In this document: in pieces, positions 23,980 through 44,126 of the stretch | Layout: each line of letters opens with the position of its first letter | Numbering within the stretch: the first letter of the stretch is position 1 | NCBI GenBank assembly: GCA_947448955.1 | Contig: CANFPU010000003.1 | Span: 1-64,000 of the forward strand | Length of the DNA stretch: 64,000 nucleotides | Direction: 5' to 3' | Origin: Burkholderiales bacterium | Lineage (GTDB): Bacteria > Pseudomonadota > Gammaproteobacteria > Burkholderiales > Burkholderiaceae_C | Made by a program: the position numbers and the translations under genes | The notes under the pieces: model-generated | The model's database searches: none | Seen by the model: only the letters and a program-made list of their open reading frames with translations | What the model was told of the DNA's origin: nothing

Positions 23980-25530
23980 TCAGCGCAGGAACAACTGGTA
24001 GACCGGGTTGTCGGTTTCCTCGACACAAGGATAGGCCAGCGCCTCGCGGAACGCGTCGAAGGCGGACGCGTCACCCGCAGGCACCTGAATACCCACCAAG
24101 ATGCGGCCGTGGTCTGCGCCCTGGTTGCGGTAGTGGAACAGGCTGATGTTCCAGTCCGGGTGCAGGCTCGACAGGAATTTCATCAGCGCACCCGGCCGCT
24201 CAGGAAAGACGAAGCGGAACAAGCGCTCGTCGGCCGCCAGCCCCGAGGCGCCGCCGACCCGGCCGCCGACCATGTGCCGCACATGCTCCTTGGCAAGTTC
24301 GTCATCGGTGAGGTCCACGGTGGCGAACCCTTGACGCGCAAAGTTGCGAGCGATCTTCTCAGCATCGTCGCGTTTGGCGATCGTCACGCCAACGAAGACA
24401 TGCGCCAGGTGAGCGTCGGAGATGCGGTAGTTGAACTCAGTAACCGAGCGCGGCCCCAGCAACTCGCAAAAGCGCTTGAATGAGCCGCGCTCCTCGGGGA
24501 TCGTCACCGCGAACAGCGCTTCGCGTTGTTCACCGAATTCCGCCCGTTCAGCGACAAAGCGCAGTCGGTCGAAGTTCATGTTGGCGCCACAGGTGATCGC
24601 CACCAGTGTTTTGCCCTTGAGCTTGTGGCGCGCGGCATATTGCTTGACCGCGGCAACGCCCATCGCGCCGGCTGGCTCGAGGATGCTGCGGGTGTCCTGA
24701 AACACATCCTTGATCGCCGCGCAGACCTCGTCGGTGTCGACGACGACGAAGTCGTCGACCAGTTCGCGGGTCAGCCGGAAAGTCTCCTCGCCGACAAGCT
24801 TGACCGCCGTGCCGTCCGAGAACAAACCGACATCGGCGAGCGTGACGCGGTGGCCGGCCTGCACCGAGCGCAGCATCGCGTCCGAGTCGCGGGTCTGCAC
24901 GCCGATCACCAGGATCTCGGGCCGCACGGCCTTGATGTACGAAGCCACGCCCGAAATCAGCCCGCCGCCGCCGATCGCGACAAAGATTGCCGTGATCGGC
25001 CCCTGATGCTGGCGCAGGATCTCCATTGCGATCGTGCCCTGGCCGGCGATCACGTCAGGATCGTCGAAGGGGTGGACGAAGGTCAACCCCTGGTCGCGCT
25101 GCAAGCCGAGAGCGTGGTCGTAGGCGTCGGAGAAGCTGTCGCCGTGCAGCACCACCTCGCCGCCCAAGGCCAACACCGCGTCGATCTTGAGCTTCGGCGT
25201 GGTCACCGGCATCACGATCAGCGCGCGGCAGCCCAGTTTCTTCGCCGACAGTGCCACGCCCTGGGCATGGTTGCCTGCAGACGCGCAGATCACGCCCTGG
25301 GCCAACTGCTCCGGCGCCAGATGCACCATCTTGTTGTAAGCGCCGCGCAGCTTGAAGCTGAACACCGGTTGCTGGTCTTCCCGCTTCAGCAACACCGGGT
25401 TGCCGATGCGTCGCGACAGGCTGCGCGCGGGCTCGAGCGCGGATTCGATCGCCACATCGTAGACCTTCGCCGTGAGGATCTTCTTCAGGTAATCGGGGTG
25501 GGACACGGGAAGGGTCTTGGCGCGGGCCAT
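23980..25530 (-). CDS. ilvA: Threonine ammonia-lyase, biosynthetic
   Basis: KREDQQPVFSFKLRGAYNKM (PLP lysine), CASAGNHAQGVALSA, two C-terminal ACT-like domains. Confidence 0.95.
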   Translation of the reverse strand: MARAKTLPVSHPDYLKKILTAKVYDVAIESALEPARSLSRRIGNPVLLKREDQQPVFSFKLRGAYNKMVHLAPEQLAQGVICASAGNHAQGVALSAKKLGCRALIVMPVTTPKLKIDAVLALGGEVVLHGDSFSDAYDHALGLQRDQGLTFVHPFDDPDVIAGQGTIAMEILRQHQGPITAIFVAIGGGGLISGVASYIKAVRPEILVIGVQTRDSDAMLRSVQAGHRVTLADVGLFSDGTAVKLVGEETFRLTRELVDDFVVVDTDEVCAAIKDVFQDTRSILEPAGAMGVAAVKQYAARHKLKGKTLVAITCGANMNFDRLRFVAERAEFGEQREALFAVTIPEERGSFKRFCELLGPRSVTEFNYRISDAHLAHVFVGVTIAKRDDAEKIARNFARQGFATVDLTDDELAKEHVRHMVGGRVGGASGLAADERLFRFVFPERPGALMKFLSSLHPDWNISLFHYRNQGADHGRILVGIQVPAGDASAFDAFREALAYPCVEETDNPVYQLFLR

Positions 25531-25615: not shown

Positions 25616-25700
25616 CAAAAAAAAGCCCAGGGTTTCCACCCCGGGCTGAATCCACCAATCAAGGAGGTGGAGGAGACAACTTGCCAGGTCAGCGGCAGGA
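25616..25700 (-). ncRNA. Candidate small RNA with anti-Shine-Dalgarno mimic and intrinsic terminator (resembles betaproteobacterial toxic small RNA family)
   Basis: Minus strand: ggcaagttgtctcctccacctccttgattggtggattcagcccggggtggaaaccctgggctttttttt; CACCTCCTT equals 16S anti-SD; CCACC/GGTGG hairpin; 9-bp terminator stem plus 8 T. Confidence 0.65.
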
Positions 25701-25879
25701 CATCCACGCCACCAACCCATGGAGAGAGTTTAGCCGCTTGATTGCTGCGCTGCAATATGATGGCGGCCTCAGGTCTAGGGAGCGCGCTCCAGAGCCTGGG
25801 GCGCGGATGCACGGCTTCGGTGCGGTCCGCACGAAATGTCCGAACTCCTACCAGCGGCAGCGCCTGAAAGAGCCAGACC

Positions 25880-26302
25880 ATGGAATGCAAGATTCATTGG
25901 GTACCCGGCAGCGGCATGGGTTTTGTGGCCGAGACCGGCAGCGGCCACCTGTTGACGATGGATGGCGCGCCCGACGGCGGCGGTCGCAACCTGGCGCCCA
26001 GGCCGATGGAAACCTTGCTGGCAGGCGCCGGCGCCTGCACCGCTTATGACGTGGTGCTGATCCTCAAGCGCGGCCGCCACGACGTGACGGGCTGCGAGCT
26101 CAAGGTCGAGGCCGACCGTGCCGCGACCGATCCCAAGGTTTTCACGCGCATCAATCTGCATTTCACCGTCACCGGCCGCAAGCTGGCCGAGGCTGCGGTG
26201 GCCCGAGCGATCGCGATGTCGCATGAGAAATATTGCTCGGCGACGATCATGCTGGGCAAGACTGCCGAGATCAGCACCAGCCACGAGATCATCGAAGGCT
26301 GA
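25880..26302 (+). CDS. OsmC family protein
   Basis: PMETLLAGAGACTAYDVVLILKRGRHDVTGCELKVEAD; HEKYCSATIMLGKTAEI. Confidence 0.9.
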   Translation: MECKIHWVPGSGMGFVAETGSGHLLTMDGAPDGGGRNLAPRPMETLLAGAGACTAYDVVLILKRGRHDVTGCELKVEADRAATDPKVFTRINLHFTVTGRKLAEAAVARAIAMSHEKYCSATIMLGKTAEISTSHEIIEG

Positions 26303-26307
26303 ACCGG

Positions 26308-26949
26308 TCAGACGACGTGGGCAACCCGCGTCATCAGCCCTGCCGCCGCCCGCATCAACCACCGCACCGGCGCGGGTACCGGGCTGGCGCCGGCCTGCAA
26401 GGCTTGCTCGGCATGTCGGGCTTCGTCGGCCTTCATCTGCGCGACCACCGCGCGCGACGCCAGGTCTTGTTCCGGCAGGCGTTGCAAGTGGCTGGCCAAA
26501 TGAGCTTCGACTTGCTGCTCGGTTTCCACGACAAAACCCAGGCTGACGCGGTCGCCGGCCCGCCCAGCGGCCAGACCGATGGCGAACGCCCCGGCGTACC
26601 ACAGCGGGTTGAGGTGGCTGGGCCGGTCGCCCAGATCGGCCAGCCGGCGCTCTGTCCACGCCAGGTGGTCGGTCTCTTCGCGGCCTGCGGCCAGCATCTG
26701 GGCACGCAACTCGGGCGTTCGGGCTGTCAAGGCCTGGGCTGCGTACAGGGCTTGGGCGCAGACCTCGCCGACATGGTTGACCCGCATCAGCGCGCCCGAG
26801 AGTTTGCGTTGCGCCGGATCCAAGGCCGGGCCGCCTTGGATCGGCAGCGGCATCGGCCGCGCCGCATGGGCGCTGCGGGTGAGTGTGCGCAGCGCTTGGT
26901 CGGCGCTGCTGATGACATTGTCGAGGGTCACCTCGTCCAGGATCGGCAT
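26308..26949 (-). CDS. coq7: 2-polyprenyl-3-methyl-6-methoxy-1,4-benzoquinone monooxygenase
   Basis: [58 protein letters not shown] di-iron carboxylate motifs. Confidence 0.94.
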
Positions 26950-42369: not shown

Positions 42370-43101
42370 TCAGGGAAGTTGTGCCACCACCGCACTGGCC
42401 GCGCCACCTTGGGCCAGCGCTTGCGCATCGGCGGCGAACAATGCGGCGGCCAGCGCGCGCTCGCGTTCGCCAACCAGGCGCAGGAACTCGCCGGCGCCTT
42501 GCATCGCCCCAAAAGCCGCGAAGCCGGATTCCAGAAAGCCTTGCAGCGCGGACAGGCCGGCAGCCTGCGCCGGGACACGCATCAGTCGCAGGCTGGACCG
42601 CAACCAACGGCTGCGGGTGAAGCCGTCCAGCGCCCGACCGATGGTCAGCGTGAGTGCGATCTGCTGCTCGCGCGCCGGCGCCCGGCCCGTGGCTTGCCAG
42701 GCTTGTACATAACCGGCGGCATCCGCTGGCAGCCCCGGCAGGTGGCGGGCCACGGTGTCATCGAGCGCCTCGGACAGCGCGTGCAGCTGGCCGAGCGCTT
42801 CCACGGTCTCGACCACTTCATGCGGAAACAAGCGCACCAGCCCGGGCACCACTCGGGCGAACTGGCTGTCGCGGTCGCCGAACTCCTGAGGCCCATACAG
42901 CTCGTCAAGAAAAAACCGGGTCGCCGCCCGGTAGCGCGGCGAGGCGAGCAGGTCGGCATAGCTTTTTTCGAAGCGCTTGGCCTGGTAGGTCTTGATCGAT
43001 CGCACCCGGTCGGCCAATGCGGGGTCGCCATGCCGTGCTTCGCGGAGCTGCGTCACCGTGTTCAGGTGGGCCCGGATGCGGTCGGCGATCAAGGAGGTCA
43101 T
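42370..43101 (-). CDS. Conserved hypothetical protein (FFLDELYGP motif)
   Basis: YRAATRFFLDELYGPQEFGDRDSQFARVVPGLVRLFP. Confidence 0.7.
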   Translation of the reverse strand: MTSLIADRIRAHLNTVTQLREARHGDPALADRVRSIKTYQAKRFEKSYADLLASPRYRAATRFFLDELYGPQEFGDRDSQFARVVPGLVRLFPHEVVETVEALGQLHALSEALDDTVARHLPGLPADAAGYVQAWQATGRAPAREQQIALTLTIGRALDGFTRSRWLRSSLRLMRVPAQAAGLSALQGFLESGFAAFGAMQGAGEFLRLVGERERALAAALFAADAQALAQGGAASAVVAQLP

Positions 43102-43196
43102 GGCTGCAGGTTACCCCGCTGGCTTGCATCGCAGCAAGGTCCCGCCGTGAACAGCTTGGCCGGTACCCGCGACGTGGTTCATGCGAGACTGGGCTG

Positions 43197-44126
43197 ATGG
43201 TGGCGTTGATGCAAAGGTGCGGGGTGGCAGTCGCGCTGTTGGCGGCTTGTGGCTGGGGAGCTTGGTGCTGGCACCGAGGTCTTGGCTTGGGCGCGTACTG
43301 GTTTGGGCTGGTGTTGGCGCTGGCGCCGCAAGCGCCTGTGTTGGCGCTGGAGTTCTTGCTGCTGGCCAGCCTGGGTCGCGACCCGAGCATGGCGCGGCCA
43401 GGGGCGGGTTCGCTGTTGCGAGCCTGGGCCAGCGAGGTGATCACCGCCTGGCAGGTGTTCGGCTGGCGCCAGCCCTTTGCCGCCGACCGGACGCCCGATT
43501 TGCTGGGTCAGCCGGACCGCATTGGCGTGCTGTTGCTGCACGGATATGGCTGTAACCGCGGCCTGTGGACGCCCTGGTTGCAGCGCCTGCGCCAGCTCGG
43601 TGTCCCTTGCACCGCGTTGACGCTCGAGCCTGCGTTCGGTCGCATCGAACGCTGCTTGCCGGCGGTCGAGGCGGCGGTACTCGACCTGACGCGGCAAAGC
43701 GGTCGGGCGCCGCTGCTGGTGGGTCACAGCATGGGCGGCTTGGTCGCGCGGGCCTGGCTCGCTGCGCAGGCCGACAGCCCAGCGGCCGATGCGCGCGTGC
43801 TCGGCGTCGTGACGATCGCGACGCCGCACCATGGCACCTGGCTCGCGCGTTTCGGGGTCGGCCCCAACGCGCGCCAGATGCGACGCGACAGCGGCTGGCT
43901 GGCGGCGCTGGCAGCGCGCGAGACGCCGCAGCGCCTGGCGCGCTTCACTTGTTTTTACAGCCACGCCGACAACCTGGTGATGCCGGCCCGTTCGGCGATG
44001 CTCGAAGGTGCCGACAACCGCCACCTCGACGGTGTCGCGCATGTGCAGATGCTGTTCGAGCCGGCGGTGTTGGACGAGGTGTTGCGCCGGGTCGGTGCAG
44101 GATCGCGAGACGTCGGCGAGCGCTGA
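43197..44126 (+). CDS. Alpha/beta hydrolase, triacylglycerol lipase-like, membrane-anchored N-terminus
   Basis: GVLLLHGYGCNRGLW, LLVGHSMGGLVARAWLA, ATPHHGT. Confidence 0.9.
   Translation: MVALMQRCGVAVALLAACGWGAWCWHRGLGLGAYWFGLVLALAPQAPVLALEFLLLASLGRDPSMARPGAGSLLRAWASEVITAWQVFGWRQPFAADRTPDLLGQPDRIGVLLLHGYGCNRGLWTPWLQRLRQLGVPCTALTLEPAFGRIERCLPAVEAAVLDLTRQSGRAPLLVGHSMGGLVARAWLAAQADSPAADARVLGVVTIATPHHGTWLARFGVGPNARQMRRDSGWLAALAARETPQRLARFTCFYSHADNLVMPARSAMLEGADNRHLDGVAHVQMLFEPAVLDEVLRRVGAGSRDVGER

Follow-up and report, generated by a model that had tools for sequence, protein, structure and literature searches.

What controls the small RNA (sRNA) encoded on the minus strand of a Burkholderiales contig (CANFPU010000003.1, positions 1 to 64,000; this 64,000-nucleotide stretch is hereafter the window), and what does the RNA act on? 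An initial annotation, made by reading the letters, had likened the RNA to the family RF02278 (Betaproteobacteria toxic small RNA), and a model search bears this out. RF02278 is the sole Rfam match at gathering in the window (cmscan, Rfam 15), and the match (25678-25617, minus strand) covers model positions 1-64 of 64 at 63.4 bits, above the gathering score of 50 (E-value 2e-10). As a member of a known family, the RNA is ordinary and well supported, and in itself offers little that is new. The most informative feature of the locus is its promoter, which the initial annotation did not consider.

Two published studies point to a missing regulator of these RNAs. Work in Burkholderia stated that what regulates their accumulation "is thus yet unknown" (PMC5688073), and work in Bordetella concluded that "there must be a repressor of PS17" (PMC11722255), the promoter of the homologous RNA S17. 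Our contribution is a promoter observation that supplies a testable candidate for this regulator. We propose, with a probability of roughly two in three, that the RF02278 RNA of the coq7-osmC locus is an Hfq-dependent, trans-acting repressor of ribosome-binding sites (RBSs) under the candidate control of PhaR, a repressor that binds polyhydroxybutyrate (PHB).

A candidate PhaR operator at the sRNA promoter

A sigma-70-like promoter is predicted on the minus strand, with TTGCAG (25755-25750) and TAAACT (25732-25727) separated by a 17-nucleotide spacer. A generic sigma-70 scan called no promoter here at its threshold; only the conserved register revealed it. Its -35 box is overlapped by the palindrome ATATTGCAGCGCAGCAA (25758-25742, minus strand), which has two mismatches to the PhaR palindrome of Ralstonia eutropha, YTKNTGCRNYGCANMAR; the authors of that palindrome accept up to three (PMC12849132). 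On the plus strand, TGCTGCGCTGCAA (25743-25755) exactly matches the PhbF consensus of Herbaspirillum seropedicae, TG[N]TGC[N]3GCAA, which is backed by a DNase footprint (PMC3206438).

The genome that contains the window also encodes PhaR, with both a DNA-binding PHB_acc_N domain and a PHB_acc (PHB accumulation) domain (L062; Pfam). Its phasin gene is preceded by two PhaR-type palindromes, TTGCTGCAATGCAGCAA and ATGTTGCAGTGCAGCAT (L095:1368-1384 and 1427-1443), one with no mismatch and the other with two mismatches to the consensus. We infer that PhaR binds at the sRNA promoter.

The primary transcript is likely to begin near 25720 and to be ~104 nucleotides long, and the 62-nucleotide RNA would, by analogy with S17, be only its processed form. 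The initial annotation had described a complete, compact sRNA between 25616 and 25700; the processed RNA does lie there, but its promoter and operator are outside, at 25758-25727. S17 has a small open reading frame (ORF), and a search for a counterpart in the long form found no conserved reading frame across 60 loci. An S17-type small ORF is unlikely to be among the features that define the RF02278 family.

Occurrence of the operator among RF02278 loci

We counted as a site any sequence no more than 160 nucleotides upstream of the RNA that departs from the R. eutropha palindrome at 2 positions or fewer, and took a PF07879 match as the sign that a genome has PhaR. Such sites precede 26 of the 31 RNA copies in the window's taxonomic family (labelled f1) and 61 of 90 copies in other PhaR-bearing genomes. 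They are found before 2 of 39 copies in genomes that lack PhaR, and in 33 of 834 control windows, which were taken from the same loci and are mostly coding. The difference between PhaR-bearing and PhaR-less genomes is associated with p = 6e-12 in a Fisher test that ignores phylogeny.

Two further features, which played no part in the search for sites, are as expected for PhaR. The letters at the centre of the palindrome obey the R-N-Y rule of PhaR sites in 34/38 and 64/70 sites, as against 15/99 in controls. Also, a -10 box of the form TANNNT lies 20-23 nucleotides past the TGC of the operator at 28/28 operator-bearing loci of f1 and at 34/60 elsewhere, with none at shifted offsets. The operator is thus conserved in promoter register, and it tracks the presence of PhaR.

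PhaR-less lineages (families f15, f36, f44, f48 and f50) often carry a different palindrome over the -10 box, about TATTAGATAATTCTAATA, which is perhaps the operator of another regulator. Many RF02278 copies in PhaR-less genomes (L096-L130) have this palindrome ~40-65 nucleotides upstream of the RNA. Elsewhere in the window there is a second full PhaR-type palindrome, TTGCATCGCAGCAA (43124-43137), flanked by genes for a 243-amino-acid protein with no Pfam match (42370-43101, minus strand) and an alpha/beta hydrolase (43197-44126, plus strand); it is a possible further PhaR target.

Proposed mechanism

RNA polymerase would initiate near 25720 from TTGCAG-17-TAAACT, and the ~104-nucleotide transcript would end at the terminator hairpin and be shortened by RNase E, leaving a stable form of 62 nucleotides. 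The exposed 5' UGUCUCCUCC, together with the loop of hairpin 1, would pair with extended Shine-Dalgarno (SD) sequences (AGGAGAC, GGAGGAGA) on a selected set of mRNAs for transport and catabolism, thereby blocking initiation. PhaR would occupy the palindrome over the -35 box and keep the gene off. Under carbon excess, PHB granules would titrate PhaR away, and the RNA would then be made and lower further substrate uptake and catabolism.

For the copy in the window, we infer processing, Hfq dependence, RBS repression and induction in glucose medium by analogy with homologues. In Bordetella pertussis, RNase E shortens S17L to the stable, 67-nucleotide S17S, the level of S17 depends on Hfq, and ~90 genes rise in the absence of S17 (PMC11722255). 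S17S represses BP2158 through Site 1 by defined base pairs, and a compensatory mutation rescues the effect (PMC11722255). Overexpression of NcS27 of Burkholderia cenocepacia slows planktonic growth and its silencing speeds it (PMC5688073), with the slowing confined to some substrates (PMC10987360). In both S17 and NcS27, what the UGUCUCCUCC region represses at the RBS is a selection of metabolic and transport mRNAs, and not translation as a whole. This work leaves out of date the remark in the initial annotation that the physiological role of the family is unclear. Glucose medium raises ncS03 8.0-fold, ncS05 6.9-fold and ncS27 4.3-fold (PMC5688073), a rise that control by PhaR would explain and that makes the model fit the known physiology. 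In the window's own genome, GGAGGAGAC occurs 1-12 nucleotides from an ATG in one place only, so near-complete targets of the seed are rare.

Is PhaR the regulator?

Several points weigh against PhaR. The motif was first seen by eye in upstream sequences and matched to PhaR afterwards, so that the comparison is part test and part description, and the loci are the best-scoring ones and not a random draw. The presence of PhaR and that of the motif both cluster by family, and a contrast within a family is available in f4 and f10 only, with one PhaR-less genome each. Two f44 loci (L041, L161) are in genomes with PhaR yet use the other promoter motif, and a good site is missing in about one third of the copies in PhaR-bearing genomes outside f1. 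At one locus (L131), the motif is present in a genome that lacks PhaR and is only 78% complete. A search of the phaR promoter of the window's genome found no site. The 13-bp PhbF pattern occurs 161 times in that genome, compared with 32 times for the reversed pattern; because it is so common, the short pattern proves little by itself, and the argument is carried by conservation and register. Finally, the draft assembly is fragmented, and its contamination amounts to 6.5%.

In a rival reading, the RNA blocks RBSs as proposed, but some regulator other than PhaR binds the palindrome, or the palindrome in part simply reflects constraint on the -35 region. Since TTGC doubles as the -35 box, one would expect half of the palindrome to be conserved in any case, and the clustering by family and the f44 genomes that have PhaR but lack the palindrome fit this reading as well. 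However, the right half, GCANCA, sits in the spacer, a stretch for which sigma-70 has no sequence preference. Moreover, the centre is R-N-Y as in PhaR sites, the phasin gene of the window's genome has similar palindromes at its promoter, and the palindrome is nearly absent from PhaR-less genomes. We regard a different regulator or a mere promoter constraint as unlikely, though as a serious alternative.

Structure and conserved parts of the RNA

The 62-nucleotide RNA has two hairpins, of which the second is followed by a run of U residues (U8). Its predicted fold has a free energy of -29.7 kcal/mol (z-score -4.8), and none of 200 dinucleotide shuffles was equally stable. The single terminator-like site in the region, as found by a terminator scan, is the 3' end of this RNA. 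Covariation, whose absence the initial annotation would have held against an RNA here, is present in both hairpins, with double-sided changes in 6 of 14 pairs (RNAalifold). The hairpin-1 pair that follows CCA/TGG is C-G in 64, U-G in 46, U-A in 13 and A-U in 11 of 151 unique sequences, as parsed by a regular expression that left 13 sequences unparsed and whose slips may account for a few mismatches. The terminator stem has at least 6 pairs in 150 of 151 unique homologues.

The initial annotation had taken as the key feature an exact copy of the anti-SD sequence of 16S rRNA. The minus-strand sequence that it quoted is present, and so is the copy, but the latter is incidental: the 9-nucleotide identity, CACCTCCTT, is found in 2 of 157 homologues, and we rejected it as the functional core. 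The conserved element is instead the 5' UGUCUCCUCC, which is the seed demonstrated for S17. The first eleven bases of the RNA, UGUCUCCUCCA, are invariant in an alignment of 31 sequences, and GTCTCCTCC is present in 149 of 157 homologues. The loop of hairpin 1 contains TCCTTGATT in the window's genome and TCCTCCATT in near relatives such as L025, and CACCTCCTT equals the anti-SD only because the window's lineage altered the loop in this way. The 3' end of 16S rRNA is absent from the window's assembly, and the identity of CACCTCCTT with 16S rRNA was checked in relatives only, the standard GGATCACCTCCTT being found in 8 of 21. In three loci (L182, L183 and L184), the loop has lost its CU-rich stretch (CCACCCAAACATAGGTGG) and the 5' UGUCUCCUCC is retained, which suggests that the loop site is dispensable.

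The initial annotation had further suggested that the RNA sequesters SD sequences and dampens translation globally, as a mimic of the ribosome. Cores that resemble the anti-SD do occur in nearly all RF02278 members examined, and homologues were named for toxicity in Escherichia coli (PMC5688073); growth inhibition by S17S in this host was not seen during exponential growth (PMC11722255). However, the set of S17 targets is limited, with pairing proven by mutation (PMC11722255), and the effects of NcS27 depend on the substrate (PMC10987360). The rarity of the exact 16S identity, whereas the 5' UGUCUCCUCC is conserved, also argues against general sequestration. We set global mimicry aside as very improbable, because it does not fit the published selectivity of homologues.

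Distribution and genomic neighbourhood

When genomes of the window's taxonomic family and of the order were sampled, RF02278 matches with an E-value of at most 0.001 turned up in 172/201 and 189/300, respectively; among good genomes, the counts are 160/179 and 173/269. Such near-universal occurrence in the family, like the gene order at the locus, fits a betaproteobacterial host (Burkholderiales). The window's genome has 1 copy, and some genomes have up to nine. Three loci of family f8 (L150, L171 and L187) have tandem copies ~200-400 nucleotides apart, and their genomes carry three to nine copies each.

Pfam searches confirmed COQ7 (E-value 1.7e-42), OsmC and threonine dehydratase domains in the neighbouring genes (Table 1). 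The RNA does lie between divergent osmC-like and ilvA genes, as initially annotated, but ilvA is a neighbour only within the window's taxonomic family. In f1, an osmC-like gene is found at 31/31 loci, and coq7, osmC and ilvA are all found at 29/31; the exceptions are L008, which has no IlvA match, and L023, which lies on a short contig and has no Coq7 match. Beyond f1, the coq7/osmC neighbourhood is common and ilvA is missing from it. Because S17 of B. pertussis also adjoins coq7 (PMC11722255), the copy in the window is most likely its positional counterpart.

This arrangement raises the question of whether the operator serves the divergent osmC gene and not the sRNA, as the site lies in their shared intergenic region, ~120 bp from the start of osmC. 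Yet the register with the -35 and -10 boxes is conserved with the sRNA, and sites also precede 27 of 48 copies whose fetched stretch contains neither osmC nor coq7, most such stretches reaching only 400 nucleotides on each side, so that some copies may still be near osmC. Since sites are present at such loci, we assign them to the RNA, and consider osmC a most implausible candidate for the gene that the operator controls. Least probable of all is that the RNA is a by-product of an ilvA attenuator, a leader whose terminator would halt transcription into ilvA: the terminator, on the same strand, is 86 nucleotides ahead of the ilvA start and the RNA has 7 nucleotides of complementarity to the ilvA SD in the window's genome, but adjacency is limited to f1, RBS complementarity is missing in most f1 relatives, and the same RNA occurs at many other loci in multi-copy genomes. 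We also rejected ilvA as a conserved cis-target, as neither the adjacency nor the RBS complementarity is conserved.

Table 1. Positions of the sRNA, its predicted control elements and neighbouring genes in the window
Feature	Position	Strand	Basis
RF02278 sRNA, processed form of ~62 nucleotides: 5' seed UGUCUCCUCCA, hairpin 1, terminator hairpin, U8	25617-25678	-	cmscan, fold z-score, covariation
5' seed UGUCUCCUCCA (S17 Site 1 plus start of stem 1)	25668-25678	-	Alignment; function known for S17 (PMC11722255)
Hairpin 1, UCCACC/GGUGGA, loop UCCUUGAUU; holds exact match to 16S 3' end, CACCUCCUU, in the window's lineage	25651-25671	-	Fold
Intrinsic terminator, 10-pair stem and U-run	25617-25647	-	Terminator scan, fold
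Leader of predicted long form (~104 nucleotides); RNase E cleavage expected as in S17L	25679-25720	-	Analogy with S17 (PMC11722255)
Predicted -10 box TAAACT, 17-nucleotide spacer; expected start A near 25720	25727-25732	-	TANNNT register
Predicted -35 box TTGCAG, inside candidate operator	25750-25755	-	By eye; register kept in 28/28 operator-bearing f1 loci
Candidate PhaR/PhbF operator ATATTGCAGCGCAGCAA (plus strand TTGCTGCGCTGCAATAT)	25742-25758	-	Consensus match
ilvA, threonine dehydratase; downstream, same strand as sRNA; partner conserved in f1 only	23980-25530	-	Pfam PALP and Thr_dehydrat_C, synteny
OsmC-like protein, divergent neighbour	25880-26302	+	Pfam OsmC, synteny
coq7, ubiquinone biosynthesis; also found beside S17 in B. 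pertussis	26308-26949	-	Pfam COQ7, synteny, PMC11722255

Comparison with known systems

The RNA resembles the double-hairpin RF02278 RNAs of B. cenocepacia (ncS03, ncS05, ncS27, ncS62 and bdhR1) in its full-length model match, invariant UGUCUCCUCC 5' end, two hairpins and terminator. However, its loop is UCCUUGAUU, where theirs is usually of the CUCCUCC type, and it is a single copy, where theirs number three to five. It shares with S17 the 5' seed, the coq7 neighbour, a TTGCA-type -35 box with a 17-nucleotide spacer, and a longer leader with expected processing. The two differ in that its leader is ~40 nucleotides long and that of S17 is 123, in that the S17 ORF (32 codons) has no conserved equivalent here, and in that its neighbours are osmC and ilvA and that of S17 is a glycosyltransferase gene; the link of S17 to BvgA does not apply here.

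In Sinorhizobium meliloti, PhaR (AniA) represses MmgR (alpha-r8), an Hfq-dependent sRNA with an anti-SD loop (PMC12542648, PMC8401924, PMC7143759). On the proposed model, MmgR and the RNA in the window would be alike as short, Hfq-type RNAs with an anti-SD loop and a PhaR (AniA) dyad in the promoter. MmgR differs in having three predicted stem-loops, affects phasins, and is known from Alphaproteobacteria. No Rfam match at gathering other than RF02278 points to homology with alpha-r8 or SuhB-type RNAs, a search in which the MmgR sequence itself was not compared.

The PhaR/PhbF regulon, as represented by phasin promoters of R. eutropha and H. seropedicae, has the same type of palindrome at the -35 position, and the window's genome has both a PhaR gene and phasin operators; the putative target here is an sRNA, whereas theirs are PHB genes. 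The sibling NmsR sRNAs of Neisseria meningitidis also have paired CU-rich unpaired stretches that target the RBSs of metabolic genes (cited in PMC5688073), but they are tandem copies with targets in the tricarboxylic acid cycle.

Implications for the RF02278 family

Although the family was already known, the link to carbon storage appears to be new for Betaproteobacteria. A literature search that did not extend to most papers under subscription, the 2019 NcS27 study among them, found no report of a link between PhaR and RF02278. We lean towards the broader view that RF02278 sRNAs are direct PhaR targets across PHB-storing Burkholderiales, such that storage status would govern an anti-SD RNA that stops further uptake and catabolism. 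Lineages without PhaR would use the other operator (about TATTAGATAATTCTAATA over the -10 box), and Alphaproteobacteria would follow the same logic with the apparently unrelated RNA MmgR. If this is true, a large group of bacteria, whether environmental, plant-associated or pathogenic, would have post-transcriptional control tied to carbon storage.
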